From Pseudomonas parafulva (lineage in GTDB: Bacteria; Pseudomonadota; Gammaproteobacteria; Pseudomonadales; Pseudomonadaceae), in contig NZ_CP019952.1 in NCBI RefSeq assembly GCF_002021815.1, positions 3,069,001-3,133,000 of the forward strand: DNA of 64,000 nt. Direction: 5' to 3'. Position 1 is the first letter of the stretch. Each line of letters starts with the position of its first letter. This document shows positions 23,540 to 49,318 of the stretch, in pieces. The position numbers were made by a program, and so were the translations under genes. The notes below the pieces were generated by a model that worked only from the letters and a program-made list of their open reading frames with translations, was not told the origin of the DNA and did not search any database.

Positions 23540-23549
23540 TTGTACACAG
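23540..23549. promoter_or_regulatory. GntR-type operator upstream of gntR
   Basis: TTGTACACAG matches nine of ten bases of the TTGTAYACAA motif and lies 35 bp before the gntR start, a position suited to autoregulation. Confidence 0.6.
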
Positions 23550-23638
23550 GCTGAGCCGTTTCTGCAGGCGTGCTTTAACGCATATAGCGATTGTTCACCT
23601 CACCTAGCATACAAAACATAAAACAGTATTTGCTTTCT

Positions 23639-23648
23639 TTGTACACAA
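23639..23648. promoter_or_regulatory. GntR-type operator upstream of the purine permease
   Basis: TTGTACACAA lies between gntR and the permease gene, 26 bp from a RutR-like dyad, so both predicted regulators could act at this promoter. Confidence 0.65.
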
Positions 23649-23673
23649 AAGCATAATCGCTCAGGCAACTTCC

Positions 23674-23687
23674 TGACCTTACGGTCA
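23674..23687. promoter_or_regulatory. RutR-like operator upstream of the purine permease
   Basis: TGACC-TTAC-GGTCA is a perfect 5-bp inverted repeat with a 4-bp centre, the most symmetric of the four such sites in the window. Confidence 0.6.
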
Positions 23688-23804
23688 ACAATGCGCCACG
23701 GCACTGCATGCTGCTGGCCAGTTGCCGCCCTCGCGGAGCCGCCAAGTGCATTGCTCAGGACCACGGGCTCCATAACAACAAGAAAGACTTGAGGAGTACT
23801 CGCT

Positions 23805-25154
23805 GTGGAAAGCCGCAAAACCGAAGTCCCTACGCTGGACATCGCTTCACCGCCCGCCACGGGTTGGCTGGAGCGCATTTTCAAACTCAGGCAACACGGC
23901 AGTACCGTTAAAACCGAGCTGATCGCCGGGGTGACCACCTTCATCACCATGGCCTACATCATTTTCGTCAACCCCAACATCATGGCCGATGCCGGCATTG
24001 ATCATGGCGCAGCCTTCGTGGCGACTTGCATCGCCGCCGCCCTCGGCTGCCTGCTCATGGGGCTGTATGCCAACTGGCCAGTGGGTCTGGCACCCGGCAT
24101 GGGCCTCAATGCGTTCTTTACCTACACCGTGGTCGGCACCATGGGCTACAACTGGGAAACGGCACTGGGCGCGGTCTTCATCTCCGGCGTGCTGTTCATG
24201 TTCCTGACGCTGTCCAAGGTGCGCGAGTGGCTGCTCAACAGCATCCCCGTCAGCCTGCGCCATGCCATGGGCGCCGGGGTGGGCCTGTTCCTCGGCCTGA
24301 TCGGCCTGAAGACCGCAGGTATCATCGTCGACAGCCCCGCCACCCTGATCAAACTCGGTTCGCTGCATGAGCCAGGCCCGCTGCTGGCGGCGATGTGCTT
24401 TTTGATGATCGCCATCCTCAGCTACAAGCGGGTATTCGGGGCGATCCTGATCAGCATCATCGGCGTAACGCTGGCGGGCTGGGGTCTGGGACTGGTGAAG
24501 TTCGGCGGCGTGGTGTCGATGCCGCCCAGCCTGGCGCCGACCTGGATGGCCATGGACGTGGCGGGCGTGTTCAACGTGAGCATGATCAGCGTGGTCCTCG
24601 CGTTTCTGTTCGTGCACATGTTCGACACCGCAGGCACGCTGATGGGCGTGGCGCAGCGGGCGAACCTGGTGGCCCCCGACGGCCGTATCGAGAACCTGTC
24701 CAAAGCGCTCAAGGCCGACAGTGCTTCGAGCGTGTTCGGCGCCGTAGTCGGCGTGCCGCCGGTCACCAGCTATGTGGAAAGTGCCGCGGGAGTGGCCGCC
24801 GGGGGGCGCACCGGCCTGACGGCTGTGGTGGTAGGCGTGCTGTTCATCGCCGCCATGTTCTTTGCACCGCTGGCCGGCATGATCCCCGCCTATGCAACCG
24901 CTGGCGCCCTGATCTACGTCGCGATGCTGATGATGGGCAGCATGGCGCACATCAACTGGGACGAGGCGACCGACAGCATTCCGGCGATCGTCACAGTGAT
25001 CATGATGCCGTTGACCTTCTCGGTGGCCGATGGCATTGCGCTGGGTTTCATCAGCTATGTGGCGCTGAAGGCCGGTACGGGTAAATACAAAGAGATCTCT
25101 GCTAGCTTGTGGGTGCTGTGTGCGATCTTTATTGCCAAGTTCATCTTCCTCTGA
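23805..25154 (+). CDS. NCS2 AzgA-type purine permease (guanine/hypoxanthine family)
   Basis: This 449-residue inner-membrane protein has 12-14 predicted hydrophobic helices and belongs to the AzgA branch of NCS2, proton symporters for adenine, guanine or hypoxanthine. Recognisable signatures are GVTTFITMAYIIFVNPNIM near residues 43-61, ANWPVGLAPGMGLNAFFTY near 88-106 and the VGVPPVTSYVESAAGVAAGGRTG segment near 312-334. GTG at 23805 follows AGGAG by 8 bases. It has both operator types upstream, consistent with purine-dependent control. The exact base transported is not set by sequence, but its neighbours guaD and xdh favour guanine/hypoxanthine. Confidence 0.92.
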   Translation: MESRKTEVPTLDIASPPATGWLERIFKLRQHGSTVKTELIAGVTTFITMAYIIFVNPNIMADAGIDHGAAFVATCIAAALGCLLMGLYANWPVGLAPGMGLNAFFTYTVVGTMGYNWETALGAVFISGVLFMFLTLSKVREWLLNSIPVSLRHAMGAGVGLFLGLIGLKTAGIIVDSPATLIKLGSLHEPGPLLAAMCFLMIAILSYKRVFGAILISIIGVTLAGWGLGLVKFGGVVSMPPSLAPTWMAMDVAGVFNVSMISVVLAFLFVHMFDTAGTLMGVAQRANLVAPDGRIENLSKALKADSASSVFGAVVGVPPVTSYVESAAGVAAGGRTGLTAVVVGVLFIAAMFFAPLAGMIPAYATAGALIYVAMLMMGSMAHINWDEATDSIPAIVTVIMMPLTFSVADGIALGFISYVALKAGTGKYKEISASLWVLCAIFIAKFIFL

Positions 25155-25172
25155 AACTTTCGCAACAGCCAA

Positions 25173-25195
25173 GGGCGCTTCGGCGCCCATTTGTC
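25173..25195 (+). terminator. Terminator-like hairpin after the purine permease
   Basis: GGGCGC-TTCG-GCGCCC forms a 6-bp stem with a stable UUCG tetraloop followed by ATTTGT. The T tract is short. Confidence 0.6.
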
Positions 25196-25299
25196 ATTAC
25201 CGGCGCGATTGGCGTGCAAATCGATCAAACTAGGATTTTTGCCAGGTGCAAACTGAATCGGTGCTTGTTACAAGTGAAAGCCTTTACGGAGGCCTGCCG

Positions 25300-26043
25300 A
25301 TGCACATACCTACCTCTGCCTTATCCACCTATACCCCATATGGTCATAGCCTATGGAGCAAGAGCTCATTGGGCTTCAACGGCGAGTTCAGTGATCCGAT
25401 TTCCCGCCTGTACCCTCTAGGCAAAGGCCACCGGCTCTACGACCCGACACTGATGAGGTTGCAGAGCCCTGACCACTGGAGTCCATTTGCTCAGGGTGGG
25501 CTCAATCCATACGCCTACTGCCAGAACGATCCGGTGAACATGGCCGACCCGTCGGGTCGAGCGCCCGTGACGTTCAGCGCAATCAAGAAGTGGTGGAGGT
25601 CAAATCATGAGCTCGCGGCCGAAAGCTTGGGTCTTACCCGAAAGTCGATATCGCCAAACCCGCAGTCCATACCTAGCTTCAATGGGGGACGGGCCGTGAT
25701 CCATGAATACACGAGGAAACTCTCAACCAGTACGCCTTTCATCCACAAGCTTGGCGTGGTCAACAGCAACCTGGCCAGCCACGGTGATAATTCCCTGAGC
25801 ATCGAGCACGCGCAAGTCTATGTAGACATCGCCGATCGCACTAGACGCGCTAGCATTTCCAACACATCTGCGCATTTACTGGCCAGTCAGGAATGGATGA
25901 AGGAACGGGGAGCACCGCGCCTGGTCGGCACGAGTTTCAACCTGCTAGGTGCGTTGGCCGCAGGCGCAGAAGACCACGCATTGTTCAGGACCGGCAAGTC
26001 GCTGGCATATATGCAACAGAGCATTCGTACCGAAACCACCTAG
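25300..26043 (+). CDS. Orphan RHS-core tip protein with unique C-terminal domain
   Basis: This 247-residue protein contains only the last part of an RHS repeat core: YTPYG near residue 11, LGFNGEFSDP near 25, RLYDPTLMRLQSPD near 46, and NPYAYCQNDPVNMADPSGR near 68-86, which is the usual junction before a variable toxin-like C-terminus. The remaining 160 residues match no family I recognise. ATG at 25300 follows ACGGAGG. There is no full-length rhs gene, transport signal or obvious immunity gene beside it, and it sits in the middle of the purine cluster. It may be a displaced Rhs/YD-repeat tip or one of the small stand-alone RHS-core genes seen in pseudomonads. Function is unknown. Confidence 0.78.
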   Translation: MHIPTSALSTYTPYGHSLWSKSSLGFNGEFSDPISRLYPLGKGHRLYDPTLMRLQSPDHWSPFAQGGLNPYAYCQNDPVNMADPSGRAPVTFSAIKKWWRSNHELAAESLGLTRKSISPNPQSIPSFNGGRAVIHEYTRKLSTSTPFIHKLGVVNSNLASHGDNSLSIEHAQVYVDIADRTRRASISNTSAHLLASQEWMKERGAPRLVGTSFNLLGALAAGAEDHALFRTGKSLAYMQQSIRTETT

Positions 26044-26052
26044 GCTTAGGCG

Positions 26053-26082
26053 AAAAAAAGCCCGCCAGTGTGAGAGCGGGCC
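26053..26082 (-). terminator. Rho-independent terminator of hiuH
   Basis: On the minus strand GCCCGC and GCGGGC pair around a 10-base loop and are followed by TTTTTTT. It lies between convergent rhs tip and hiuH genes. Confidence 0.75.
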
Positions 26083-26114
26083 AAAGGACCTACGAAGATT
26101 CTTCTAGCGACCAA

Positions 26115-26468
26115 CTAGCTTCCACGGTAGGTCGAATAACTGTACGGCGATATCAGCAGCGGCACATGGTAGTGCTCCTGCTGCGCATCGATGCCAAAGC
26201 GCAATACCACCACATCCAGAAACGGCTGCTCAGGCAGCGCCACGCCACGCCCACGGTAGTAGTCACCGGCATTGAACTGCAGCTGGTAAACACCCGAACG
26301 GTAGTCATCGCCTTGCAACAATGGCGCGTCGACGCGGCCATCGCTGTTGGTGAGCGCCGAGGTGACCAACGTCAACTGGCTGCCTTCGACACGGTACAAC
26401 TCCACCTTGATTGCGCTGCCTGGGCAGCCATGGGCTGCGTCCAGTACGTGAGTGGTCAAACGTCCCAT
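26115..26468 (-). CDS. hiuH: 5-hydroxyisourate hydrolase (transthyretin-like)
   Basis: HiuH hydrolyses 5-hydroxyisourate, the product of urate oxidation, to OHCU. The 117-residue protein has the family marks: the N-terminal TTHVLDAAHG with its catalytic histidine at residues 5-14, an arginine in SDGRVDAPL near 45, and the exact C-terminal tetrapeptide YRGS that separates the enzyme from true transthyretin. ATG at 26468 is used; the upstream in-frame ATG at 26507 adds an unrelated leader. No signal peptide is seen. It is divergent from puuE, and TTGTACACAA lies 106 bp upstream. Confidence 0.95.
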   Translation of the reverse strand: MGRLTTHVLDAAHGCPGSAIKVELYRVEGSQLTLVTSALTNSDGRVDAPLLQGDDYRSGVYQLQFNAGDYYRGRGVALPEQPFLDVVVLRFGIDAQQEHYHVPLLISPYSYSTYRGS

Positions 26469-26573
26469 CTGCTTGTCGCCTCTTGTTTGCCAGGGGCAAG
26501 TACGCACGCCAGTGACCCGAAGCGGGGCAACGTGCGGCTTGAATTCGCATAATTAAGACATTCTCAAAAAAAA

Positions 26574-26583
26574 TTGTACACAA
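26574..26583. promoter_or_regulatory. GntR-type operator upstream of hiuH
   Basis: TTGTACACAA is flanked by eight A on the left and seven T on the right, so the symmetry extends well beyond the 10-bp core. It lies 106 bp upstream of hiuH. Confidence 0.65.
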
Positions 26584-26757
26584 TTTTTTTGCTTGCCCAG
26601 CCAATTAGCCAACAGACCATGGCTTCAGCGGCAACAATGCAGGGCATAGCGTCTTCATCGCGCTTAGCTGACCAAGTGGGCAGGTTTCTTGCAAGGTATC
26701 CAGACACGACACCTGGGCAGAAATACGGAAATTCAGACTTACAAAAGAATTCATAAG

Positions 26758-26767
26758 TTGTATACAA
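26758..26767. promoter_or_regulatory. GntR-type operator upstream of puuE
   Basis: TTGTATACAA is a perfect palindrome 73 bp before the puuE start. Confidence 0.7.
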
Positions 26768-26840
26768 TCATCGCATCCGGTGGTGCGACACAGCGACGCG
26801 GCCCGCCACCCTGCCCACACGTACAAGAAGGAAGACTGCA

Positions 26841-27767
26841 GTGAGCGCTGACTACCCTCGCGACATGATCGGTTACGGCAATAACCCTCCTCACCCGCAA
26901 TGGCCAGGCAACGCCCGCATTGCCCTGTCATTCGTGCTCAACTACGAAGAAGGCGGCGAGCGCAACATCCTGCACGGCGACAAGGAGTCCGAAGCCTTTC
27001 TCTCCGAGATGGTCGCTGCCCAGCCGTTGCAGGGCGTGCGCAACCAGAGCATGGAGTCGCTCTACGAATACGGCAGCCGCGCAGGCGTGTGGCGCCTGCT
27101 CAAACTGTTCAAAGACAGCGGCATTCCCTTGACCATCTTCGCCGTGGCCATGGCCGCCCAGCGCCACCCCGACGTGATCCGCGCCATGGTCCAGGCCGGC
27201 CATGAAATCTGCAGCCACGGCTACCGCTGGATCGACTACCAGTACATGGACGAGGCCCAGGAGCGCGAGCACATGCTCGAAGCCATCCGCATCCTCACCG
27301 AGATCACCGGCGAACGCCCGCTGGGCTGGTACACCGGCCGCACCGGCCCCAACACCCGCCGACTGGTCATGGAAGAAGGCGGCTTTCTCTACGACAGCGA
27401 CACCTATGACGACGACTTGCCCTACTGGGAGCCGAACAACCCCACCGGCAAGCCGCACCTGGTCATTCCCTACACCCTGGACACCAATGACATGCGCTTC
27501 ACCCAAGTGCAGGGCTTCAACTGTGGCGAGCAGTTCTATCAGTACCTCAAGGACGCTTTCGACGTGCTGTACGCCGAAGGCGCCGAGGCGCCGAAGATGC
27601 TCTCCATCGGCCTGCACTGCCGCCTGGTCGGTCGGCCGGCACGCCTGGCAGCGCTCAAGCGTTTTGTCGACTACGCCAAAAGCCACGAGCAGGTATGGTT
27701 CGCCCGCCGCGTCGACATCGCCCGCCACTGGCAAGCCACCCACCCGTACCAGAAAGGGGCCGTCTGA
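26841..27767 (+). CDS. puuE: Allantoinase PuuE (polysaccharide deacetylase fold)
   Basis: PuuE hydrolyses S-allantoin to allantoate and is unrelated to amidohydrolase-type allantoinases. The 308-residue protein opens with the family sequence YPRDMIGYGNNPPHPQWPG, followed by LNYEEGGERNILHGD near residue 34 and the NodB-like HEICSHGYRWIDYQYM near 119-134; it lacks the metal-binding aspartate of classical deacetylases, as expected for PuuE. The start is GTG at 26841 with GAAGGAAG upstream. The stop overlaps the uraD start by one base. It heads the puuE-uraD-allA-puuD series. Confidence 0.94.
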   Translation: MSADYPRDMIGYGNNPPHPQWPGNARIALSFVLNYEEGGERNILHGDKESEAFLSEMVAAQPLQGVRNQSMESLYEYGSRAGVWRLLKLFKDSGIPLTIFAVAMAAQRHPDVIRAMVQAGHEICSHGYRWIDYQYMDEAQEREHMLEAIRILTEITGERPLGWYTGRTGPNTRRLVMEEGGFLYDSDTYDDDLPYWEPNNPTGKPHLVIPYTLDTNDMRFTQVQGFNCGEQFYQYLKDAFDVLYAEGAEAPKMLSIGLHCRLVGRPARLAALKRFVDYAKSHEQVWFARRVDIARHWQATHPYQKGAV

Positions 27768-28282
27768 TGACCACCTTCAAGACCCTCAAGCCGTCCACCC
27801 TTGACCGTGACGCGTTCGTCCATGCCTTCGCCGACATCTACGAGCACTCGCCGTGGGTCGCCGAGAAGGCCTACGACCTCGGTCAACTGGACGAACTGGA
27901 CAACGTACAAACACTGCACCAGCGTATGAGCGACATCCTGCTGAGCGCACCCCAAGCCGACCAACTGGCCTTGATCAACGCTCACCCGGACTTGGCCGGC
28001 AAGGCTGCCGTGCAGGGTGAACTGACCGCCTCGAGCACCAACGAACAGGCCGGAGCCGGTATTCACCAATGCACCGCCGAGGAATTTGCGCGCTTCACCT
28101 CGCTCAACGAGGCGTACAAGGCCAAGTTCCAGTTCCCGTTCATCATGGCCGTCAAGGGCAGCGACCGGCACCAGATCCTGGCCTCGTTCGAACAGCGCAT
28201 CCACAACGATGCCAAGGCCGAATTCGCCGAGGCGCTCAAGCAGATCAACCAGATCGCCCTGTTCCGCCTGCAACAGCTGTAA
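27767..28282 (+). CDS. uraD: 2-oxo-4-hydroxy-4-carboxy-5-ureidoimidazoline (OHCU) decarboxylase
   Basis: UraD decarboxylates OHCU stereospecifically to S-allantoin, following HiuH. The 171-residue protein is all-helical, with the LYEHSPWVAEKAYD-like segment (residues 24-38), the active-site histidine in INAHPDLAGKAA near 64-75 and the EFARFTSLNEAYKAKFQFPFI segment near 105-125. ATG at 27767 overlaps the puuE stop (TGATG), so translation is coupled. In some bacteria the gene is fused to hiuH or puuE; here it is separate. Confidence 0.95.
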   Translation: MTTFKTLKPSTLDRDAFVHAFADIYEHSPWVAEKAYDLGQLDELDNVQTLHQRMSDILLSAPQADQLALINAHPDLAGKAAVQGELTASSTNEQAGAGIHQCTAEEFARFTSLNEAYKAKFQFPFIMAVKGSDRHQILASFEQRIHNDAKAEFAEALKQINQIALFRLQQL

Positions 28283-28331
28283 GCGACCGACGATTCTTAA
28301 CAGAACAACGAACAATAGAAGAGATAACCGC

Positions 28332-28835
28332 ATGCGCACCCTGATGATCGAGCCCCTGACCAAAGAAGCCTTCGCCCCTTTCGGTGACGTGATCGAAACC
28401 GACGGCAGCGACCACTTCATGATCAACAACGGCTCGACCATGCGCTTTCACAAGCTCGCCACGGTCGAGACCGCCGAGCCCGAAGACAAGGCGATCATCA
28501 GTATTTTCCGCGCCGACGCGTTGGAAATGCCGCTGACCGTGCGCATGCTCGAACGCCATCCGCTGGGCAGCCAGGCTTTCATTCCGCTGCTCGGCAACCC
28601 CTTTCTGATCGTGGTCGCGCCACTTGGCGATGCACCTGTATCAGGCTTGGTCCGCGCCTTCCGCAGCAACGGCAGGCAGGGCGTCAATTACCATCGCGGC
28701 GTCTGGCACCACCCGGTGCTGACGATCGAAAAGCGGGATGACTTCCTGGTGGTTGATCGCAGTGGTTCTGGCAACAACTGCGATGAGCATTACTTCAGCG
28801 AGGAACAGATGCTGATCCTCAACCCCCACCAATAA
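28332..28835 (+). CDS. allA: Ureidoglycolate lyase AllA
   Basis: AllA splits S-ureidoglycolate into glyoxylate and urea in the cytoplasm. The 167-residue cupin-like protein shows the family segments EPLTKEAFAPFGDVIE (residues 7-22), MLERHPLGSQAFIPL near 73-87 and GVNYHRGVWHHPVL near 117-130. ATG at 28332 is used. It is 49 bp after uraD. In P. aeruginosa-type clusters an allantoicase gene supplies its substrate, but none lies here; the gap before allA is too short to hold even a remnant. Its product glyoxylate would feed the gcl cluster at 38.4 kb and its urea matches the urea transporter gene at 45 kb. Confidence 0.93.
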   Translation: MRTLMIEPLTKEAFAPFGDVIETDGSDHFMINNGSTMRFHKLATVETAEPEDKAIISIFRADALEMPLTVRMLERHPLGSQAFIPLLGNPFLIVVAPLGDAPVSGLVRAFRSNGRQGVNYHRGVWHHPVLTIEKRDDFLVVDRSGSGNNCDEHYFSEEQMLILNPHQ

Positions 28836-32642: not shown

Positions 32643-32996
32643 CAACCTGACCACATGCACAGGTTTGCTCCACCATGCTCCACGACGGAGCACTTGAGGC
32701 CAGGCGCGCAAGCCAGTAATCTGCGCGCCCCCTCGATCAGGGCAGAACGGATTCTGCCTGCGTTTACTGACCGCTCAGTCAATGAATTCGGGCGGTTGGC
32801 CAACGTGTTGCCAGCCTGAAAGACCCTTTTCATCCGTTCAGAACGACGTCGAGCAGGACGGTTTCGCCAACCGGGAGAAAGTTGGCTCAACCCTTGCCAG
32901 ACAGCTGTGGCCCATCGAAAAAAGCTGACTAAAAAGACAGAAAAAGCGCCAACACCGAGCGCTGACAACAGATCAACCAAGGGAGCGACATCCGCA
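32643..32996. other. Intergenic region between the two tsx-like genes
   Basis: This 354-bp gap holds no convincing gene. It contains a RutR-like dyad at 32768-32781, which suggests that the second channel gene has its own regulated promoter instead of relying on read-through. Confidence 0.6.
32768..32781. promoter_or_regulatory. RutR-like operator upstream of the second tsx-like gene
   Basis: TGACC-GCTC-AGTCA is an imperfect palindrome with 4 of 5 arm positions matched, extended by ACTGACC...GTCAAT context. It lies 215 bp before the start codon. Confidence 0.45.
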
Positions 32997-37028: not shown

Positions 37029-37640
37029 ATGAGCACCATTCGCGAGCGCAACAAGGAATTGATCCTGCGCGCGGCCAGCGAGGAATTCGCCGACAAGGGC
37101 TTCGCAGCCACCAAAACCAGCGATATTGCCGCCAAGGCTGGCCTGCCCAAACCCAACGTCTACTACTACTTCAAGTCCAAAGACAACCTGTACCGCGAGG
37201 TGCTGGAAAGCATCATCGCGCCGATCATGCAGGCCTCCACCCCGTTCAACGCCGATGGCGATCCTCGCGAGGTGCTGAGCGCATACATTCGCTCCAAGAT
37301 CCGCATCTCCCGCGACCTGCCCCATGCGTCGAAGGTGTTCGCCAGCGAAATCATGCACGGCGCCCCGCATTTGTCGCCCAGCCAGGTCGAACAGCTCAAC
37401 GAGCAGGCGCGGCACAACATCGAGTGCATCCAGCACTGGATAGACCGCGGCCAGATCGCCCACGTCGATGCGCATCACCTGATGTTCAGCATCTGGGCGG
37501 CAACCCAGACGTACGCTGATTTCGACTGGCAGATCTCGGCAGTGACCGGCAAGGCCAAGCTGGCCGACAGCGACTACGACGCGGCGGCCGAAACCATCAT
37601 CCGCATGGTGCTCAAAGGCTGCGAACCCGAGCCGGCCTGA
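37029..37640 (+). CDS. RutR-like TetR family regulator
   Basis: This 203-residue protein has an N-terminal TetR helix-turn-helix (TKTSDIAAKAGLPKPNVYYYF, about residues 29-49) and a C-terminal domain that follows E. coli RutR closely in places: SRDLPHASKVFASEIMHGAPHL near 96-117 and the LMFSIWAATQTYADFDWQISAVTG segment near 147-170. RutR senses uracil and controls pyrimidine and purine use. Four sites resembling the RutR operator occur in this window upstream of xdhA, the AzgA-type permease, a tsx-like gene and the NCS1 permease, so this protein is their likely binder. The ligand here could be a purine; that is inference. A MITE sits in its promoter region. Confidence 0.87.
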   Translation: MSTIRERNKELILRAASEEFADKGFAATKTSDIAAKAGLPKPNVYYYFKSKDNLYREVLESIIAPIMQASTPFNADGDPREVLSAYIRSKIRISRDLPHASKVFASEIMHGAPHLSPSQVEQLNEQARHNIECIQHWIDRGQIAHVDAHHLMFSIWAATQTYADFDWQISAVTGKAKLADSDYDAAAETIIRMVLKGCEPEPA

Positions 37641-37721: not shown

Positions 37722-38162
37722 TCAGGCCACCGCGCCCGCATCGGCGCGCAGCCCCAGCGCCTCGATGGCACTGATCGCACACTGCTCGTCGATATCCGAT
37801 GTGTCCCCGCTGATCCCCACCGCCCCCAGCACCCGCCCATCCTGATCACGCACCAGCACACCGCCTGGCGCCGGCACGACCGCCCGTTCGCCCAACCCGT
37901 TGAGCGCGGCGAAGAAGGCCGGCCGTTGCTGCGCATCCAGCGCCAGCAGACGCGAGCCCTTGCCCAGTGCTATCGCACCCCAGGCTTTGCCCGTGGCGAC
38001 CTCGGGTCGGATCAGGCTCGCCCCGTCTTCACGCTGCAAGGCAAGCAAGTGCCCACCGGCATCGAGCACCGCCACCGTCAGCGGCGCCGCCTGGATGGTA
38101 CGCCCGGCAGCCAATGCGGCGTTTACCAGGCTCAGCGCCAGGTTCAGGTTCAAAGCATTCAT
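37722..38162 (-). CDS. GlcG/HbpS-like small protein
   Basis: This 146-residue protein belongs to the GlcG/HbpS (DUF336) family, with the opening LNLNLALSLVNAALAAG, the VAVLDAGGHLLALQREDGA segment (residues 29-47), PGGVLVRDQDGRVLGAVGISGDT near 98-120 and the DEQCAISAIEAL ending. No signal peptide is seen. The family includes a haem-binding member in Streptomyces and GlcG of the glycolate operon, whose exact role is unclear. It is divergent from gcl and shares a 246-bp region with two TTGTATACAA sites, so it is very likely coregulated with glyoxylate use. Confidence 0.82.
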   Translation of the reverse strand: MNALNLNLALSLVNAALAAGRTIQAAPLTVAVLDAGGHLLALQREDGASLIRPEVATGKAWGAIALGKGSRLLALDAQQRPAFFAALNGLGERAVVPAPGGVLVRDQDGRVLGAVGISGDTSDIDEQCAISAIEALGLRADAGAVA

Positions 38163-38243: not shown

Positions 38244-38253
38244 TTGTATACAA
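38244..38253. promoter_or_regulatory. GntR-type operator upstream of the glcG-like gene
   Basis: TTGTATACAA, a perfect palindrome in an AT-rich stretch, lies 81 bp before the glcG-like start and 155 bp before gcl. Confidence 0.7.
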
Positions 38254-38373
38254 TATTTAGATTCAATCGTATTCGATAGCGCAAGCACCCTATTTCACGG
38301 CCGCATCGACTTGCCCGATCAAAACCCATTGACCGGATCACCTGAGCATGAATACACTGAATCGCAACGCAGG

Positions 38374-38383
38374 TTGTATACAA
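38374..38383. promoter_or_regulatory. GntR-type operator upstream of gcl
   Basis: TTGTATACAA, identical to the preceding site and 120 bp from it, lies 25 bp before the gcl start codon, well placed for repression. Confidence 0.7.
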
Positions 38384-38408: not shown

Positions 38409-40184
<1,776 letters not shown>

Positions 40185-40233
40185 TCGCCTGACGCCCCGG
40201 CTGGCCCGGGGCTCTCAACGCAAGGAGACAACC

Positions 40234-41016
40234 ATGCCTCGCTTCGCTGCCAACCTGTCCATGCTGTTCACCGAGCAGGACTTCCTGGCCCGCTTCAAGG
40301 CCGCCGCCGACGCCGGTTTCAGTGGTGTCGAATACCTGTTCCCCTACGATTTCAGCGCTGCCGAAATCCAGGCGCAGCTCAAGGCTCACAGCCTGACCCA
40401 GGTGCTGTTCAATCTTCCCGCGGGGGATTGGTCCAAGGGTGAGCGTGGCATCACCTGCCACCCCGATCGCGTCGAAGAATTCCGTGCAGGTGTCGACAAG
40501 GCCATCGAGTACGCCAAGGTGCTGGGCAACACCCAGGTCAACGCCCTGGCTGGGATTCGCCCAGACGGCCCGGACTGCGCCACCGTGCGCAAGACCTTCG
40601 TGGAAAACCTGCGCTATGCCGCCGACAAGCTCCAGGCCGCCGGTATTCGCCTGGTCATGGAAATGATCAACACCCGCGACATTCCGGGCTTCTACCTCAA
40701 CACCACCGAGCAGGCATTGGCCATTCAGGCCGAAGTGGGCAGCGACAACCTGTTCCTGCAATACGACATCTACCACATGCAGATCATGGAAGGTGACCTG
40801 GCGCGCACCATGGAAACCAATCTGCAGTCGATCAACCACATCCAGCTGGCCGACAACCCGGGCCGTCACGAGCCGGGTACTGGCGAGATCAACTACCGCT
40901 TCCTGTTCGAGCACCTGGACCGCATCGGCTACCAGGGCTGGGTGGGCGCGGAATACAAGCCCAAGACCACCACCGAAGCGGGCTTGGGCTGGCTGAAAAC
41001 GCACAACGCGATCTGA
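40234..41016 (+). CDS. hyi: Hydroxypyruvate isomerase
   Basis: Hyi interconverts hydroxypyruvate and tartronate semialdehyde. The 260-residue protein is a xylose-isomerase-like TIM barrel with the start MPRFAANLSMLFTE, the GFSGVEYLFPY segment near residues 29-39, and the conserved VMEMINTRDIPGFYL (near 140-154), QYDIYHMQIMEGDL (near 174-187) and LADNPGRHEPGTGEINY (near 207-223) regions that hold the metal ligands. ATG at 40234 follows AAGGAG. It lies 49 bp after gcl and 43 bp before glxR in a typical gcl operon order. Confidence 0.95.
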   Translation: MPRFAANLSMLFTEQDFLARFKAAADAGFSGVEYLFPYDFSAAEIQAQLKAHSLTQVLFNLPAGDWSKGERGITCHPDRVEEFRAGVDKAIEYAKVLGNTQVNALAGIRPDGPDCATVRKTFVENLRYAADKLQAAGIRLVMEMINTRDIPGFYLNTTEQALAIQAEVGSDNLFLQYDIYHMQIMEGDLARTMETNLQSINHIQLADNPGRHEPGTGEINYRFLFEHLDRIGYQGWVGAEYKPKTTTEAGLGWLKTHNAI

Positions 41017-41059
41017 ATCCCACCGGGAACGCGAACAACGATAAAAGAGGTAATTTCTG

Positions 41060-41953
41060 ATGGCTAAAATCGGTTTCATCGGCACCGGCATCATGGGCAA
41101 GCCCATGGCCCAGAACCTGCAAAAAGCAGGGCACAGCCTGTTCGTCTCCACCCACCACGATGCAGCTCCAGCCGACCTGATCGCCGACGGCGCCGTGGCC
41201 CTGGCCAACCCCAAGGAGGTGGCCCAGGAAGCCGAGTTCATCATCGTCATGGTCCCGGACACCCCACAGGTCGACAGCGTACTGTTCGGGGACAACGGCG
41301 TTGCCCAGGGCGTGGGCCCGAACAAGGTGGTGATCGACATGAGTTCGATTTCCCCTACTGCCACCAAAGCCTTTGCCGAGAAGATCAACGCCACCGGCGC
41401 TACCTACCTTGATGCCCCGGTGTCCGGGGGTGAAGTGGGCGCCAAGGCCGCGACCCTGAGCATCATGGTCGGCGGCTGCCCAAAAGCCTTCGAGCGCGCC
41501 CTGCCGCTGTTCCAGAGCATGGGCAAGAACATCACCCTGGTAGGCGGCAATGGTGACGGTCAGACCGCGAAGGTGGCCAACCAGATCATCGTCGCCCTGA
41601 ACATCCAGGCCGTCAGCGAGGCGTTGCTGTTTGCCGCGAAGAACGGCGCCGACCCGGCCAAGGTGCGCGAGGCACTGATGGGCGGCTTCGCATCGTCGAA
41701 AATTCTGGAAGTGCACGCCGAGCGCATGATCAAAGGCACCTTCGACCCAGGCTTCCGCATCAACCTGCACCAGAAGGACCTTAACCTGGCCCTGCAAGGC
41801 GCCAAGGAACTGGGCATCAACCTGCCTAACACTTCCAATGCCCAGCAAGTGTTCAACACCTGCCAGGCCCTGGGTGGCGGCAACTGGGACCACTCGGCGC
41901 TGATCAAGGGCCTGGAGCACATGGCCAATTTCTCGATCCGCGACGACCGCTGA
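41060..41953 (+). CDS. glxR: 2-hydroxy-3-oxopropionate (tartronate semialdehyde) reductase
   Basis: GlxR reduces tartronate semialdehyde to D-glycerate with NAD(P)H. The 297-residue protein is a beta-hydroxyacid dehydrogenase with the N-terminal Rossmann motif IGFIGTGIMGKPMAQNL (residues 4-20), the substrate-binding DAPVSGGEVGA segment near 118-128, the catalytic lysine in NGDGQTAKVANQII near 165-178 and the KDLNLAL segment near 236-242. It follows hyi. A 177-bp gap with a hairpin separates it from ttuD. Confidence 0.95.
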   Translation: MAKIGFIGTGIMGKPMAQNLQKAGHSLFVSTHHDAAPADLIADGAVALANPKEVAQEAEFIIVMVPDTPQVDSVLFGDNGVAQGVGPNKVVIDMSSISPTATKAFAEKINATGATYLDAPVSGGEVGAKAATLSIMVGGCPKAFERALPLFQSMGKNITLVGGNGDGQTAKVANQIIVALNIQAVSEALLFAAKNGADPAKVREALMGGFASSKILEVHAERMIKGTFDPGFRINLHQKDLNLALQGAKELGINLPNTSNAQQVFNTCQALGGGNWDHSALIKGLEHMANFSIRDDR

Positions 41954-42011
41954 TCCGAGCGCAGGGCCTGCCTTGCAGCCCTGCTGCCGGTAACCCGGCA
42001 CACCTGTTACG

Positions 42012-42036
42012 CCCCTTGGCTGAGCACAGCCAGGGG
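42012..42036 (+). other. Hairpin between glxR and ttuD
   Basis: CCCC-T-TGGCT and AGCCA-GGGG form a 9-bp stem with one bulged base and a 6-base loop. There is no T run, so transcription may partly continue into ttuD. Confidence 0.45.
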
Positions 42037-42130
42037 TGAACCCGAGCAACACCGCCCCTGGTTCGGCCTGCACGGAGGCTGTTCCAGGGGCGTTCTCGAT
42101 TGTGCAGAACAACAATAAAGGGAGCCTGCC

Positions 42131-43405
42131 ATGTCGGTCGATCCACACAAACTGCTGCGTGAGCTGTTCGACACAGCCATCGCCGCGGCCCATCCCAGCC
42201 ACGTGCTCGAACCCTACCTGCCCGCCGACCGCAGCGGTCGGGTGATCGTCATCGGCGCAGGCAAGGCGGCCGCCGCCATGGCCGAGGTGGTTGAGAAGCA
42301 CTGGCAAGGCGAGGTCAGCGGCCTGGTCGTGACCCGCTACGGCCATGGTGCCAACTGCCAACACATCGAAGTGGTCGAAGCCGCCCACCCGGTGCCTGAT
42401 GCGGCCGGCCTGGCGGTTGCCAGGCGCGTGCTGGAACTGGTCGGCAACCTCAGCGAGCAGGATCGGGTGATATTCCTGCTGTCCGGCGGCGGCTCTGCCT
42501 TGCTGGCGCTGCCCGCCGCCAACCTGACCCTGGCGGACAAACAGCACATCAACAAGGCCCTGCTCAAATCCGGCGCCACCATCGGCGAGATGAACTGCGT
42601 GCGTAAGCACCTCTCGGCGATCAAGGGTGGGCGCCTGGCCAAGGCCTGCTGGCCGGCCACGGTCTACACCTACGCGATCTCGGACGTGCCGGGCGATCTG
42701 GCCACGGTCATCGCTTCAGGCCCCACCGTGGCCGACCCGAGCACCTCGGCCGAGGCACTGGCGATCCTCAAGCGCTACGCCATTGACGCTCCACAGGCCG
42801 TCATCGACTGGCTCAACGACCCGGCCTCGGAAACCCTCAAGGCTGGCGACCCAGCCCTGGCCCGCAGCCATTTCCAGCTGATCGCCAAGCCTCAACAGTC
42901 GCTCGAAGCTGCGGCGGTCAAGGCGCGCCAGGCAGGTTTCAGCCCGTTGATATTGGGCGACCTGGAAGGTGAGTCACGGGAAGTGGCCAAGGTGCATGCA
43001 GGCATTGCCCGACAGATCGTTCAGCATGGCCAGCCGCTCAAGGCCCCTTGCGTGATTCTGTCCGGCGGCGAGACCACTGTCACCGTGCGCGGTAATGGCC
43101 GCGGCGGGCGCAATGCGGAATTTCTGCTCAGCCTCACCGAAAGTCTCAAGGGCCTGCCGGGCGTCTACGCACTGGCAGGCGACACCGACGGCATCGACGG
43201 CTCGGAAGAAAACGCCGGCGCTGTCATGACGCCTAACAGCTACGCACGCGCCCAAGCGTTGGGCCTGTCGGCCAGCGACGAGCTGGACGACAACAACGGC
43301 TACGGCTACTTCGCCGCACTCGATGCGCTGATCGTCACCGAACCCACGCGCACCAACGTCAATGACTTTCGCGCCATCCTGATTCTCGAGACCGACCCCT
43401 CATGA
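42131..43405 (+). CDS. ttuD: TtuD family protein: glycerate 2-kinase or hydroxypyruvate reductase (MOFRL)
   Basis: This 424-residue protein belongs to the TtuD/GckA family, with an N-terminal DUF4147 domain and the C-terminal MOFRL domain. Seen segments are VIVIGAGKAAAAMAEVVEKHW (residues 38-58), VSGGGSALLALP-like LLSGGGSALLALPA near 117-130, SDVPGDLATVIASGPT near 189-204 and RGGRNAEFLLSL near 326-337. Such genes are often named hydroxypyruvate reductase, but characterised relatives are glycerate 2-kinases. Its location between glxR, which makes glycerate, and pyk, which uses phosphoenolpyruvate, favours the kinase. It overlaps pyk by 4 bp. Confidence 0.88.
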   Translation: MSVDPHKLLRELFDTAIAAAHPSHVLEPYLPADRSGRVIVIGAGKAAAAMAEVVEKHWQGEVSGLVVTRYGHGANCQHIEVVEAAHPVPDAAGLAVARRVLELVGNLSEQDRVIFLLSGGGSALLALPAANLTLADKQHINKALLKSGATIGEMNCVRKHLSAIKGGRLAKACWPATVYTYAISDVPGDLATVIASGPTVADPSTSAEALAILKRYAIDAPQAVIDWLNDPASETLKAGDPALARSHFQLIAKPQQSLEAAAVKARQAGFSPLILGDLEGESREVAKVHAGIARQIVQHGQPLKAPCVILSGGETTVTVRGNGRGGRNAEFLLSLTESLKGLPGVYALAGDTDGIDGSEENAGAVMTPNSYARAQALGLSASDELDDNNGYGYFAALDALIVTEPTRTNVNDFRAILILETDPS

Positions 43406-44817
43406 CGCCTGACAAGAAAGTGAAAATCCTCGCCACCCTGGGCCCGGCTACGGGTGGCATCGACGATGTGCGGCAACTGGTGGAAGCAGGCGTGAACATT
43501 TTTCGCCTCAACTTCAGCCATGGCGAGCATGCCGACCATGCGCTGCGCTATCAGTGGATCCGCGAGGTGGAGCAGCAGCTGCACTACCCGCTAGGCATCC
43601 TCATGGACCTGCAAGGGCCGAAGCTGCGTGTGGGCCGTTTCGCTGAAGGCAAGGTGCAGTTGCAACGCGGTCAGGCCCTGCGCCTGGACCTGGACGAGGC
43701 CCCTGGCGACAGCCGCCGGGTCAACCTGCCACACCCTGAAATCATCGCAGCCCTTGAGCCCGGCATGGACCTGCTGCTGGACGACGGCAAGCTGCGCCTG
43801 CAGGTGACCGCCAAACACAGCGATGCGATCGACACCGAAGTGCTGAACGGTGGCGAGCTGTCCGACCGCAAGGGCGTCAACGTGCCGCAAGCGGTGCTCG
43901 ACCTCTCCCCGCTCACCGAAAAAGACCGCCGCGACCTGGCTTTCGGCCTGGAGCTGGGTGTGGACTGGGTGGCCCTGTCGTTTGTACAGCGCCCCGAGGA
44001 CATCCTTGAAGCGCGCCAGCTGATTGGTGACCGCGCCTTCCTGATGGCCAAGATCGAGAAACCTTCGGCGGTCGAACAACTGCCAGCCATTGCCGAACTG
44101 GCGGACGCGATCATGGTGGCCCGTGGCGACCTGGGCGTGGAAGTGCCGGCCGAGAGCGTGCCGCAGATTCAGAAGCGCATCATCGGCACCTGCCGGCAGC
44201 TGGGTAAACCGGTGGTAGTGGCTACGCAGATGCTCGAATCGATGCGTTTCTCGCCAGCACCGACTCGTGCCGAAGTCACCGACGTGGCCAACGCCGTGGC
44301 CGAAGGTGCGGACGCTGTGATGTTGTCGGCGGAGACGGCCTCGGGTGACTACCCGCTCGAAGCCGTGCAGATGATGAGCAAGATTATCCGCCAGGTGGAG
44401 AACGGCCCGGACTACCAGGCCCAGCTCGACGTTGGCCGGCCGAAGGCCGAGGCCACCGTATCGGACGCCATCAGCTGCGCCATCCGTCGCATCAGCGGCA
44501 TCCTGCCGGTGGCGGTGCTGGTCAACTACAGCGAGTCGGGCGCCTCGACCCTGCGTACTGCGCGCGAGCGCCCACGGGCACCGATCCTCAACCTGACGCC
44601 GAACCTGAACACCGCTCGCCGCCTTAGCGTGGCCTGGGGCGTGCATTCGGTAGTGAATGACCGCCTGCGCCAGGTGGACGAAGTGGTTTCCACTGCGCTG
44701 GAAATTGCCCAGGCCCAAGGCATGGCTAACCGTGGCGACACGCTTCTGATCACTGCCGGTGTGCCTTTCGGCAAGCCAGGCTCGACCAACACGCTGCGCA
44801 TCGAGACGTTGAACTGA
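43402..44817 (+). CDS. pyk: Pyruvate kinase
   Basis: This enzyme converts phosphoenolpyruvate and ADP to pyruvate and ATP. The 471-residue protein has the start KKVKILATLGPAT, NFSHGEHADH near residues 33-42, the signature IMVARGDLGVEVP near 235-247 with the MAKIEKPSAVEQL lysine segment near 214, and ATQMLESM near 274-281. ATG at 43402 overlaps the ttuD stop as ATGA, so the two are translationally coupled and this isoenzyme is dedicated, at least partly, to glyoxylate/glycerate use. The genome probably has another pyruvate kinase; that is inference. Confidence 0.95.
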   Translation: MTPDKKVKILATLGPATGGIDDVRQLVEAGVNIFRLNFSHGEHADHALRYQWIREVEQQLHYPLGILMDLQGPKLRVGRFAEGKVQLQRGQALRLDLDEAPGDSRRVNLPHPEIIAALEPGMDLLLDDGKLRLQVTAKHSDAIDTEVLNGGELSDRKGVNVPQAVLDLSPLTEKDRRDLAFGLELGVDWVALSFVQRPEDILEARQLIGDRAFLMAKIEKPSAVEQLPAIAELADAIMVARGDLGVEVPAESVPQIQKRIIGTCRQLGKPVVVATQMLESMRFSPAPTRAEVTDVANAVAEGADAVMLSAETASGDYPLEAVQMMSKIIRQVENGPDYQAQLDVGRPKAEATVSDAISCAIRRISGILPVAVLVNYSESGASTLRTARERPRAPILNLTPNLNTARRLSVAWGVHSVVNDRLRQVDEVVSTALEIAQAQGMANRGDTLLITAGVPFGKPGSTNTLRIETLN

Positions 44818-46772: not shown

Positions 46773-46799
46773 CTAAGGCGCCCCTGACGATCTGAAGGG

Positions 46800-46825
46800 C
46801 TCGCTCACCTTGACGGCTGAGCGAG
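46800..46825 (+). terminator. Hairpin after the channel gene
   Basis: CTCGCTCA and TGAGCGAG form a perfect 8-bp stem with a 10-base loop, followed by TCATT. It is a weak terminator candidate. Confidence 0.45.
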
Positions 46826-46977
46826 TCATTAAGTGGGCAAAGCCCCTGGACAACTGCCAGAACCGCCAATCGGCCAGCGCATATAAGCAAAGACGCATTG
46901 ATTCTTTAATACCTGAAGAACAAGACGCTATAGTCGCTGGCACATTGCCCAACATTCATACCCATAAGGAATGCGTC

Positions 46978-47976
46978 GTGAAAAAGTTCTTCACCGTCTC
47001 GCTGGCCGCCGCCAGCCTGGCCTTCGGCACCCTGGCCCACGCTGCCCCGACCTTGCTGAACGTTTCCTACGACGTGATGCGTGACTTCTACAAGGATTAC
47101 AACCCCGCCTTCCAGAAGCACTGGGAGGCCGAGCATAACGAGAAGGTCAATGTGCAGATGTCCTTCGGTGGCTCGAGCAAACAGGCGCGCGCGGTGATCG
47201 ATGGCCTGCCGGCCGACGTGATCACCATGAACATGGCCACCGACATCAATGCCTTGGTCGACAACGGCAAATTGATCCCTGACAACTGGGTCACGCGCCT
47301 GCCGAACAACAGTGCACCGTTCACCTCTGCCACGGTGTTCATCGTCCGCAAAGGCAACCCCAAGGCATTGAAAGACTGGCCCGACCTGCTCAAGGATGGC
47401 GTACAGGTCATCGTACCCAACCCCAAGACCTCGGGTAACGGCCGCTACACCTACCTGTCGGCGTGGGGCTATGTGCTCAAGCAAGGCGGTGACGAGAACA
47501 AGGCGCGCGCGTTCGTCGGCAAGCTGTTCAAGCAGGCGCCGGTGCTCGACACCGGTGGTCGCGCCGCCACCACCACGTTCATGACCAACCAGATTGGCGA
47601 TGTGCTGGTGACGTTCGAGAACGAAGCCGAAATGATCGCCCGCGAATTCGGTCGCGATCAGTTCGAGGTGGTTTACCCAAGCGTGTCGGCCGAAGCCGAG
47701 CCGCCGGTGAGCGTGGTCGATAAAGTCGTCGCCCGCAAAGGCACTCAGGCGGTGGCCGAGGAATACCTGAAATACCTGTGGTCCCCGGCCGCCCAGGAAC
47801 TCGCCGCCCAGAACTACCTGCGCCCACGCGATGCGACTGTGTTGGCCAAGTACACCGACCGTTTCCCCAAGGTTGAATTCCTCTCGGTCGAGAAGACCTT
47901 TGGTGACTGGCGCACCGTGCAGAAAACGCATTTCAACGATGGGGGCGTGTTCGATCAGATTTATACCGGTCAGTGA
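46978..47976 (+). CDS. sbp: Sulfate-binding periplasmic protein
   Basis: This 332-residue protein binds sulfate or thiosulfate for an ABC importer. It has a signal peptide ending in AHA (near residue 22), the mature start APTLLNVSYDVMRDFYKDYNP, the MSFGGSSKQARAVIDGLPADV segment near 61-81 and NPKTSGNGRYTYLSAWGY near 143-160, all typical of Sbp/CysP proteins. The start is GTG at 46978 with AAGGA upstream. No cysTWA permease or ATPase genes lie nearby, so it works with transporter parts encoded elsewhere. Confidence 0.92.
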   Translation: MKKFFTVSLAAASLAFGTLAHAAPTLLNVSYDVMRDFYKDYNPAFQKHWEAEHNEKVNVQMSFGGSSKQARAVIDGLPADVITMNMATDINALVDNGKLIPDNWVTRLPNNSAPFTSATVFIVRKGNPKALKDWPDLLKDGVQVIVPNPKTSGNGRYTYLSAWGYVLKQGGDENKARAFVGKLFKQAPVLDTGGRAATTTFMTNQIGDVLVTFENEAEMIAREFGRDQFEVVYPSVSAEAEPPVSVVDKVVARKGTQAVAEEYLKYLWSPAAQELAAQNYLRPRDATVLAKYTDRFPKVEFLSVEKTFGDWRTVQKTHFNDGGVFDQIYTGQ

Positions 47977-48044
47977 AGCGGGCTGAGCTGGGTCAGCCGC
48001 GCACGCGCCTGGGGGCTTGAGCTTCGCCGCGTGGGCCCGCCCCA

Positions 48045-48971
48045 TCAACCCAACCGAAACACCAACGCCTTCAATCCCCCAGCCGGATCCACATCCGGAA
48101 ACTCGGGCGGGTTCTGCAGGCGTTCGACGAAGGCAAGGCCGGGCGCGTGCTCGGCCATGCCCTCGATCAAGAACTCAGGCCCGATGCCCGGGTCGTTCAC
48201 ACAGGCCAACACCGTCCCACCTTCATTCAACAGCTCAGGCAAGCGCCGCAGGATCTTCGCGTAGTCCTGGGTCAGCACGAAGCTACCGCGTTGGAAGGTA
48301 GGCGGATCGATGATGATCAGATCGTAAGGCCCGTATTTGCGCACCTTGCCCCACGACTTGAACAGCTCATGGCCCAGGTAGGCCACCCGGGACGGGTCGT
48401 GCTGGTTAAGGCGGTGGTTATCGCGCCCTCGGGACAGTGCCGATTTGGCCATGTCCAGGTTCACCACCTGCTCGGCGCCACCTGCAATCGCCGCCACCGA
48501 AAAACCACAGGTGTAGGCAAACAGGTTCAGCACGCGCTGCCCCTTGGCCTGGGCACGCACCCACTGGCGACCAAGGCGCATGTCCAGGAACAGGCCATTG
48601 TTCTGGCGTACCCCCAGGTCCAGCAGGTAGGTCAGACCGTCCTCGATCACTTCACGTTGCTGACACGGCTCGCCCACCAGCCATTGACCGGGGCTGTCGG
48701 GCAGGTAACGGTGTTGCAGCAGGATCGCCTGGCCTGTCCACTGCTCAAGGCGCGACAGCCGCAACAGCATCGCCTCAAGCGCTGCCAATTGTCCTTCCGG
48801 GGGCTCACGGAACAAGGCGACCGACAACACGCCTTGAAGCCAGTCCACCGTGATTTGCTCAAGACCAGGCCAGCAACGGCCACGACCGTGGAAAAGACGA
48901 CGGGTTTCTTCAGGGGCGGGGTTCAGGGCGGCAAGCAGATGCTGCTCGAGGGCGGCAATCGGAGAGGTCAT
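48045..48971 (-). CDS. SAM-dependent methyltransferase, RlmI/RlmL-like rRNA type
   Basis: This 308-residue protein matches the class I methyltransferases of the COG1092 type. The SAM-binding region is VLNLFAYTCGFSVAAIAGGAEQVVN (near residues 145-169), followed by the catalytic-type motif IIIDPPTFQRGSF near 220-232. Upstream, GVRQNNGLFLDMR near 120-132 is the family's linker. It lacks the N-terminal PUA domain of RlmI. The likely substrate is rRNA, but the site is not known from sequence. It is divergent from the NCS1 permease across a 500-bp control region. Confidence 0.83.
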   Translation of the reverse strand: MTSPIAALEQHLLAALNPAPEETRRLFHGRGRCWPGLEQITVDWLQGVLSVALFREPPEGQLAALEAMLLRLSRLEQWTGQAILLQHRYLPDSPGQWLVGEPCQQREVIEDGLTYLLDLGVRQNNGLFLDMRLGRQWVRAQAKGQRVLNLFAYTCGFSVAAIAGGAEQVVNLDMAKSALSRGRDNHRLNQHDPSRVAYLGHELFKSWGKVRKYGPYDLIIIDPPTFQRGSFVLTQDYAKILRRLPELLNEGGTVLACVNDPGIGPEFLIEGMAEHAPGLAFVERLQNPPEFPDVDPAGGLKALVFRLG

Positions 48972-49049
48972 GTCAGGTCACATCGGTAAGCGGAGTCGTA
49001 TTTTACATGGCAAGGCCACGAAGGAGCGCCATCTCGGATTGTCTATTTT

Positions 49050-49059
49050 TTGTACACAC
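49050..49059. promoter_or_regulatory. GntR-type operator, distal to the NCS1 permease
   Basis: TTGTACACAC matches nine of ten bases of TTGTAYACAA. It is 79 bp before the methyltransferase start and 413 bp before the permease, so it may be an auxiliary site. Confidence 0.5.
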
Positions 49060-49181
49060 TAATGTCACCTTAAGTGCCATTTTTGTGTGCACTTGCACCG
49101 ATTAAGCCCCGATGTGTTACATGAAGCGCTCATTGAATGCTGACTAACTGATCAACTAAGCCCATGAATTCAAACAATTAT

Positions 49182-49195
49182 TGACTTTGTGGTCA
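49182..49195. promoter_or_regulatory. RutR-like operator upstream of the NCS1 permease
   Basis: TGACT-TTGT-GGTCA is an imperfect palindrome with 4 of 5 arm positions matched, in an AT-rich stretch. Confidence 0.5.
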
Positions 49196-49308
49196 GTTTA
49201 AAAACCTGATTTTTCAGATTGTTACCGCAATATACCCGCTTTCCGAATGAACACCTTGGTGGTCGCTTACTCAAGCTGGCATGGAAATGGCTTTACTGTG
49301 CTTGTGTT

Positions 49309-49318
49309 TTGTATACAA
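49309..49318. promoter_or_regulatory. GntR-type operator upstream of the NCS1 permease
   Basis: TTGTATACAA is a perfect palindrome 154 bp before the permease start. Confidence 0.65.

Follow-up and report, generated by a model that had tools for sequence, protein, structure and literature searches.

Which regulator reads the ten-base palindrome TTGTAYACAA, and which genes does it govern? The question is raised by a 64,000-nucleotide stretch of the Pseudomonas parafulva chromosome (NZ_CP019952.1, positions 3,069,001 to 3,133,000, hereafter the window), where copies of this word lie between genes for purine import, allantoin breakdown and glyoxylate use. We consider it very probable that TTGTAYACAA is the operator of the GntR-family repressor with an FCD domain encoded at 22750-23505, an orthologue of GclR and UgmR, and that this repressor controls the genes of the window that carry the word upstream. 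The basis here is the sites, their conservation, their co-occurrence with the regulator and their spacing; binding, repression and relief by urate come from the literature on P. aeruginosa, and the opening of the gcl pathway from that on P. putida. From this material we infer direct binding in P. parafulva, cooperativity and autoregulation of gclR. The regulon exists, but its core has been described before; new here, as predictions, are further members, a helically phased spacing of the sites and a second word.

Six perfect and two one-mismatch copies of the word had been named in an initial annotation of the window, and all eight putative operators were found where it had placed them:

23540..23549, plus strand: one-mismatch operator TTGTACACAG, 34 bp before the gclR ATG, the identical variant occurring in many relatives
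23639..23648, plus strand: operator TTGTACACAA between gclR and azgA (word search, conservation)
26574..26583, plus strand: operator TTGTACACAA on the hiuH side, 66 bp before the hiuH start
26758..26767, plus strand: operator TTGTATACAA on the puuE side, 73 bp before the puuE start
38244..38253, plus strand: operator TTGTATACAA on the glcG side (word search, conservation)
38374..38383, plus strand: operator TTGTATACAA on the gcl side, 25 bp before the gcl ATG
49050..49059, plus strand: one-mismatch operator TTGTACACAC, with its partner site 259 bp away
49309..49318, plus strand: operator TTGTATACAA of NCS1-hpxA (word search, conservation)

The regulator and its predicted targets are the following, some of the short gene names being those we presume from the matched families:

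22750..23505, minus strand: gclR/ugmR, GntR-family FCD repressor (Pfam GntR 4.5e-17, FCD 1.5e-23)
23805..25154, plus strand: purine permease (Pfam PF00860 3.5e-49), which we take to be of the AzgA type
26115..26507, minus strand: hiuH, 5-hydroxyisourate hydrolase (Pfam Transthyretin 4.8e-36)
26841..27767, plus strand: puuE, allantoinase, heading a puuE-uraD-allA-puuD-uacT run (NCBIfam TIGR03212 1.6e-164)
37722..38162, minus strand: glcG/HbpS-like gene (Pfam PF03928)
38409..44817, plus strand: gcl-hyi-glxR-ttuD-pyk, leading from glyoxylate to pyruvate (profile matches)
49472..51749, plus strand: NCS1 allantoin-type permease (start inferred) and an Asp/Glu/hydantoin racemase, presumably hpxA-like (profile matches)

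The number of sites is beyond chance, as had been claimed. At the GC content of the window (62.8%), 0.04 perfect places are expected per 64 kb and six were found; when one mismatch is allowed, the window holds 15 strand-matches, whereas 100 dinucleotide shuffles gave 1.58 on average and never more than 5. Over the 4.69 Mb genome, 2.9 perfect places are expected at the same GC content and 11 are present, six in the window and five outside. The eight listed sites, the two one-mismatch copies included, are all intergenic, as the annotation had it, and this does not extend to a third one-mismatch copy (39878-39887, minus strand), which lies in the coding DNA of gcl, recurs in gcl of close relatives and is probably a coding coincidence. 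Its remark that the regulator gene is flanked by two sites needs correction, both sites lying upstream of gclR in the gclR-azgA intergenic region. The resemblance it saw to FadR-type GntR operators is borne out: TTGTA-TACAA fits the FadR-subfamily consensus NyGTM-N0-1-KACNy quoted in PMC4494728 with a spacer of zero, and TTGTA-CACAA does so with one half-site change.

Operators are paired in all four intergenic regions that hold them, one member having a mismatch in two of these regions, and they stand 25 to 156 bp upstream of gene starts. Site 49309 falls within the longest possible open reading frame of the NCS1 permease (49247-51004). In this frame the Pfam domain of the permease is matched only from residue 122 onwards. 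Translation more likely starts at the ATG at 49472, which would probably put the site 153 bp upstream of the gene. The permease matches the NCBIfam ncs1 and allantoin permease models, both under their curated cut-offs.

Conservation of the word follows the same genes across Pseudomonas. We examined 80 named gclR loci, the best 80 of 544 confirmed and hence the closest relatives, for a perfect site at most 350 bp 5' of each gene, excluding loci without the gene (0 for gclR, 11 for azgA, 23 each for hiuH and puuE). Such a site precedes gclR in 80/80 loci, azgA in 69/69, hiuH in 57/57 and puuE in 57/57; gclR and azgA share an intergenic region, as do hiuH and puuE, and neither pair makes two independent tests. 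No perfect site was found upstream of xdhA (0/70) or xdhR (0/70), where two loci each have a one-mismatch copy, nor upstream of guaD (0/78), uraD (0/57), allA (0/54), puuD (0/54) or uacT (0/53). When 350-bp windows were drawn at random from these loci without masking the real sites, 741 of 20,000 held a perfect site. In 19 more diverse genomes the upstream site of gclR is perfect in 17 and has one mismatch in two (L065, L066). For gcl, 16 of 18 loci (the window, with seven and ten from two sets of relatives) carry a perfect site. The sites also stay with their genes when gclR, puuE and gcl lie far apart in dispersed clusters (puuE in L125-L128 and L130-L132; gcl in L141-L147); conservation is therefore not merely synteny.

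The regulator itself is widespread. GclR combines a winged helix with an FCD domain (Pfam GntR 61.9 bits, cut-off 27; FCD 84 bits, cut-off 24.3) and is present at E<=1e-60 in 108 of 119 genomes of the genus. In 107 of these the match covers almost the whole protein at 76-100% identity; the remaining one is a partial match at 88%. The window protein is 99% identical to the regulator of P. fulva NBRC 16637 (GTDB set), and the neighbourhood of the orthologue group (guaD, azgA, hiuH, puuE, gcl) is conserved around gclR. On the strength of this genus-wide identity, the neighbourhood and the literature, the window regulator is taken as the orthologue of PP_4283 and PA1520.

Scans of whole genomes, as the annotation had proposed, bore the reading out: the number of sites tracks the presence of gclR. 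Genomes that bear it hold 10-15 perfect places (G000 11, G065 15, G103 15, G015 11, G118 14, G107 11, G061 10) against 0-3 in ten that lack it (0, 1, 1, 2, 1, 0, 1, 3, 1 and 1, with G076 left out). A reversed control word gave 0-7 strand-matches in the former and 1-8 in the latter. Among the genomes lacking gclR, gcl occurs in 1/11 (G076, the assembly of which is fragmented) and 4/11 have a close puuE; both genes occur in all nine gclR-bearing genomes tested alongside. One genome without gclR, G043, has a one-mismatch puuE site.

Two studied regulators meet in this protein. In P. aeruginosa, UgmR (PA1520) is reported to bind ahead of both gcl and the allantoin cluster PA1513-PA1518 and to repress them (PMC12694930), with uric acid relieving this repression, in work of Xu et al. 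2022 as cited there. UgmR resembles the window regulator in its GntR family and in having gcl and allantoin genes as reported targets; the account concerns another species, and its excerpts do not mention NCS1-hpxA, the distant xanthine permease described below or mcpH among the targets. In P. putida KT2440, GclR (PP_4283) lies 12 kb from the gcl cluster and is connected to xanthine metabolism (Um et al. 2026, PMC13357446), and its deletion opens the glyoxylate carboligase pathway (Li et al. 2019, via PMC13357446, PMC11166783 and PMC6978631). It, too, is a GntR repressor near the gcl cluster and linked to xanthine, studied there for growth on ethylene glycol. The operator sequence of GclR or UgmR was not found in the excerpts of the secondary literature, nor was the complete regulon of GclR, and the operator may well stand in Xu et al. 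2022 or Li et al. 2019; as a text string, TTGTATACAA led, among the matches listed, to papers on unrelated subjects. E. coli AllR belongs to the IclR family, has a different operator and senses allantoin and glyoxylate. It likewise joins allantoin breakdown to glyoxylate use, judging from a reference title in PMC12694930. A GntR-controlled allantoin/glyoxylate regulon, as first proposed, agrees with the FCD domain of the regulator, the conservation at the same genes, the background site numbers where the regulator is missing and the published account of UgmR.

The effectors first suggested fared unequally, urate being favoured by the literature and allantoin spoken against (PMC12694930). Glyoxylate is probably not a sufficient inducer, because P. 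putida KT2440 with GclR uses ethylene glycol, from which glyoxylate is formed, as an energy source only (PMC13357446, PMC11166783). In GclR the metal-site histidines of the FCD domain (150, 193 and 215, at positions we take to be those of the site) are kept and the acidic position is Gln95. That position is Asp in 3c7j and Glu in 7xp0 and 7u5q, and it is Gln in three aligned orthologues and in a paralogue; Gln95 in the effector pocket might accommodate a ligand that lacks a carboxylate, urate for example. A repressor dimer would sit on each palindrome and hold off azgA, hiuH, the puuE run, glcG, the gcl run, the NCS1-hpxA run and its own gene. A purine intermediate, urate by the P. aeruginosa work, would release it, and uptake, urate-to-glyoxylate breakdown and glyoxylate use would then be induced together.

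Several observations weigh against this assignment. In two of the 18 gcl loci (L063, L149), both from gclR-bearing genomes, no site within one mismatch stands near gcl. Two genomes without gclR at E<=1e-60 (G026, G050) keep the puuE site in perfect form and the hiuH site with one mismatch, their best FCD relatives of GclR being 39% identical; recent loss of the regulator and a stand-in are both possible. Equally good sites at unrelated genes, which the initial annotation held would tell against its reading, exist in part: four of the five perfect sites outside the window stand at unrelated-looking genes, namely a gly-zipper protein, what we take from its sequence to be azurin, ccoN (cbb3 oxidase) and the start of fliK. 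Four is about the chance number, although every one of them is found again in two or more of six relatives with listed sites. In P. aeruginosa, allantoin induces the gcl promoter, although UgmR reportedly does not respond to allantoin (Parkhill et al. 2025, PMC12694930). In P. umsongensis GO16, deletion of an 89% identical gclR relative had no effect on growth on ethylene glycol (PMC13357446). A sigma-70-like promoter was predicted at the gcl operator and at none of the others. Finally, a paralogue 51% identical to GclR (G000:C1:2883388-2884008) has a recognition helix, SRTVIRRVLGRL, very similar to that of GclR, SRTIIRRALSRL, at the position we presume for it. The gene of this paralogue is the second in a tandem pair of FCD GntR genes that lies outside the window (L047:6621-8009).

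The alternative that survives best is that the sites are read by several FCD regulators, GclR together with this paralogue of about 50% identity or another GntR protein such as PA0120. It would explain the sites at unrelated genes and those kept without gclR, as before puuE in G026 and G050, and it is in line with the similar recognition helices and with the sites predicted for both PA0120 and UgmR at gcl in P. aeruginosa (PMC12694930). However, the 16 kb around the paralogue hold no operator word within one mismatch, and site numbers fall to background in the ten gclR-lacking genomes. At E<=1e-60, a cut-off that may hide weaker ones, the paralogue is found in part of the genus only, whereas the sites are near universal. 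We regard shared reading as possible but rather unlikely.

It is far less plausible that the word serves RNA polymerase as a structural or promoter element, for instance as an extended -10 from TATACAAT. Several sites do read TTGTATACAAT, which contains TACAAT, and their flanks are AT-rich. The sites nevertheless vary in their distance to the starts, between 25 and 156 bp, with their symmetry kept, their number tracks gclR, and no sigma-70-like promoter falls on any of them, the predicted gcl promoter lying upstream of its site. The other FCD regulator (15698-16357), of the same family and adjoining purine genes beside xdhA, is most improbable as the reader, with no perfect word in its own intergenic region in the 70 xdhR/xdhA loci (one-mismatch copies in two), a clearly different helix-turn-helix and 19% overall identity to GclR.

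With GclR as the preferred reader, the map of sites predicts added members of the regulon. The remaining perfect site outside the window lies 68 bp before a second xanthine permease gene (pbuX family). This distant permease occurs at 24 loci in 23 of 28 genomes, with a perfect site at 18, a one-mismatch site at five and none at one (a second copy in G015), and is predicted to belong with the regulon. The NCS1-hpxA operon is a further predicted target, with a perfect site at 16 of 17 orthologous loci and the one-mismatch TTGCATACAA at the remaining one; an NCS1 match at E<=1e-150 is missing in 11 of the 28 genomes.

The operator is also predicted, for some species, upstream of mcpH, which encodes a purine chemoreceptor. 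In G107 and G061, which were picked because they had the mcpH site, a perfect copy lies 50-57 bp upstream of the gene, the product of which (L106) matches the structure of the uric-acid receptor McpH (8bmv, E 5e-103). Two other genomes, G036 and G010, were chosen by similar gclR without prior knowledge of sites, and both have the site 50-51 bp before mcpH. These TTGTATACAA copies (L106:1501, L109:1501, L324:8930, L329:778) keep the word constant while their flanks vary. All four genomes are called fluorescens-type here, by gclR identity and the dispersed cluster. No mcpH was found in the 200 kb of the window genome examined, and none of the sites inspected in five other genomes stands before an mcpH-type gene; four places in G103 (4431551-4441434) and one in G061 (5013868) lay outside this inspection. 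The four G103 places have spacings of 183 and 140, as in the hiuH/puuE and glcG/gcl pairs. A second dCache chemoreceptor gene, similar to 6mni (L162), has the operator upstream in G103 and G118 (L162:1542, L173:1472).

Other sites were considered as members, and some were set aside. Conservation is uninformative at ccoN, where the word lies in a long conserved AT-rich block; at fliK the conserved block runs into coding sequence and does not single out the word; and in L171 and L176 the word falls within the coding sequence of an OprB porin gene. Two other sites may yet be members. The gly-zipper site (L012:5001; L085-L087, L107, L108) is kept in six aligned genomes, with a C-to-T change in one species that stays within the consensus. 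Three genomes (L089, L161, L170) have a site with poorly conserved flanks before a dihydrolipoamide-dehydrogenase-type gene (lpd3) beside a cyclopropane-synthase-type gene (cfa).

The spacing of the paired operators offers another view of the system. Counting sites within one mismatch in distinct intergenic sequences, the distance between the hiuH and puuE operators in 78 sequences is 183-184 (21), 192-196 (32), 204-207 (18), 216 (1) or 246-247 (2), the other four being 179, 179, 181 and 289. Between the glcG and gcl operators it is 128-130 (4), 139-140 (11) or 150 (1) in 16 sequences. From one species to another, spacing thus changes mainly by roughly whole helical turns, on fewer data for the glcG/gcl pair, and the distinct spacings of the two pairs give Rayleigh values of 0.0016 and 0.016 at a period of 10.5, relatedness being ignored. 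The gclR/azgA pair has no helical phase (Rayleigh 0.18). A parsimony reconstruction of spacing prefers near states, and its null p of 0 overstates the phasing, for which the Rayleigh values are the fairer measure. In an alignment of representative hiuH-puuE regions, insertions and deletions are spread over three or more positions, evidence against slippage of a single repeat. Because the spacing varies mostly in such helical steps, binding to paired sites is probably cooperative, perhaps via a small loop. The one predicted sigma-70-like promoter lies at 38329-38358 and the gcl operator starts 15 bases after it, a position that suits a roadblock.

A second word, the inverted repeat YTGACYNNNNRGTCAR, marks part of the same pathway. 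It is perfect four times in the window and has one mismatch between hiuH and puuE, and with at most one mismatch ten matches were counted against 1.49 expected. The copies, the candidate reader and a promoter-like element that overlaps one of the copies are:

16535..16550, plus strand: second element CTGACCTTTGAGTCAG before xdhA
23673..23688, plus strand: second element CTGACCTTACGGTCAA before azgA
26668..26683, plus strand: second element with one mismatch, between hiuH and puuE
32767..32782, plus strand: second element CTGACCGCTCAGTCAA before the tsx-like porin gene
49181..49196, plus strand: second element TTGACTTTGTGGTCAG before NCS1, weakly conserved
37029..37640, plus strand: RutR-like TetR regulator, candidate reader of the second element (Pfam TetR_C_3; closest structures in a search of solved proteins those of E. 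coli RutR, E 1e-35)
26678..26693, plus strand: GG-N10-GC sigma-54-like element before puuE, overlapping the YTGACYNNNNRGTCAR copy there (consensus match, conserved; 32 matches this good or better in the window)

Across relatives YTGACYNNNNRGTCAR is perfect before xdhA in 71/71 loci and before azgA in 79/80, with changes in the inner bases. Before tsx, 56 of the 59 loci with the gene have a perfect copy, two a one-mismatch copy and one none; before puuE the copy has one mismatch in 65/68 and is perfect in none. It is weaker before ncs1 (17 loci: two perfect, seven with one mismatch, eight without), and before gcl it is perfect in 1/18 loci with one mismatch in two more. It is absent before guaD (0/79), uraD (0/68), puuD (0/65) and uacT (0/60). 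For comparison, of 4,000 windows of 350 bp placed at random in these loci, with the real sites left in, 138 held a perfect copy and 232 one within a single mismatch. The protein encoded at 37029-37640 is a full-length relative of E. coli RutR, and YTGACYNNNNRGTCAR resembles the RutR box, TTGACCA-N2-TGGTCAA by the consensus as we take it. Unlike the E. coli system, the word here marks purine genes. We predict that this RutR-box-like word marks xdhA, azgA and tsx and, less firmly, puuE and ncs1. It does not explain the induction of gcl by allantoin; PA1504, a TetR-family protein whose C-terminal domain is of the RutR type, is named as a possibility under investigation in P. aeruginosa (Parkhill et al. 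2025, PMC12694930).

Taken together, there is perhaps an even chance that the entire purine pathway of Pseudomonas is run by a code of two words. Urate-relieved GclR/UgmR on phased twin operators would govern urate-to-glyoxylate breakdown, allantoin and xanthine import and, in some species, McpH, and a RutR-like regulator on YTGACYNNNNRGTCAR would govern xdhABC, azgA, tsx and puuE. If this is true, the cell would swim towards purines only once it degrades them, and the RutR-like PA1504 would gain a target set, yet the second word is perfect before gcl at a single locus of those compared. The short, nearly invariant operator makes the regulon readable from sequence alone. Co-regulation with purine breakdown is predicted for two additional transporters and, in certain species, for a chemoreceptor; the spacing suggests cooperative binding across 130-200 bp, and the second word offers a candidate regulator of the upstream purine genes. 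The operator map would also be of practical use, gclR mutants serving the engineering of P. putida for ethylene glycol and the monomers of polyethylene terephthalate (PMC11166783).

Among the other genes of the window, profile matches identify xdhA, xdhB, xdhC, guaD, a tsx-like porin and a urea transporter, and the thiamine pyrophosphate enzyme at 34877-36760 matches ubiquinone-dependent pyruvate dehydrogenase. No allantoicase gene lies between uraD and allA (27764-28835), although G026 carries one there, and a whole-genome Pfam search found none, but control genomes were equally silent. An orphan open reading frame with an Rhs core (25246-26043) stands between azgA and hiuH, with 55-59% identical matches in the loci of two of 19 relatives. 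Beyond the end of the window, a 946-aa open reading frame combines ToxA_N and glycosyltransferase-like domains (L016:2232-5072; G000:C1:3135232-3138072).

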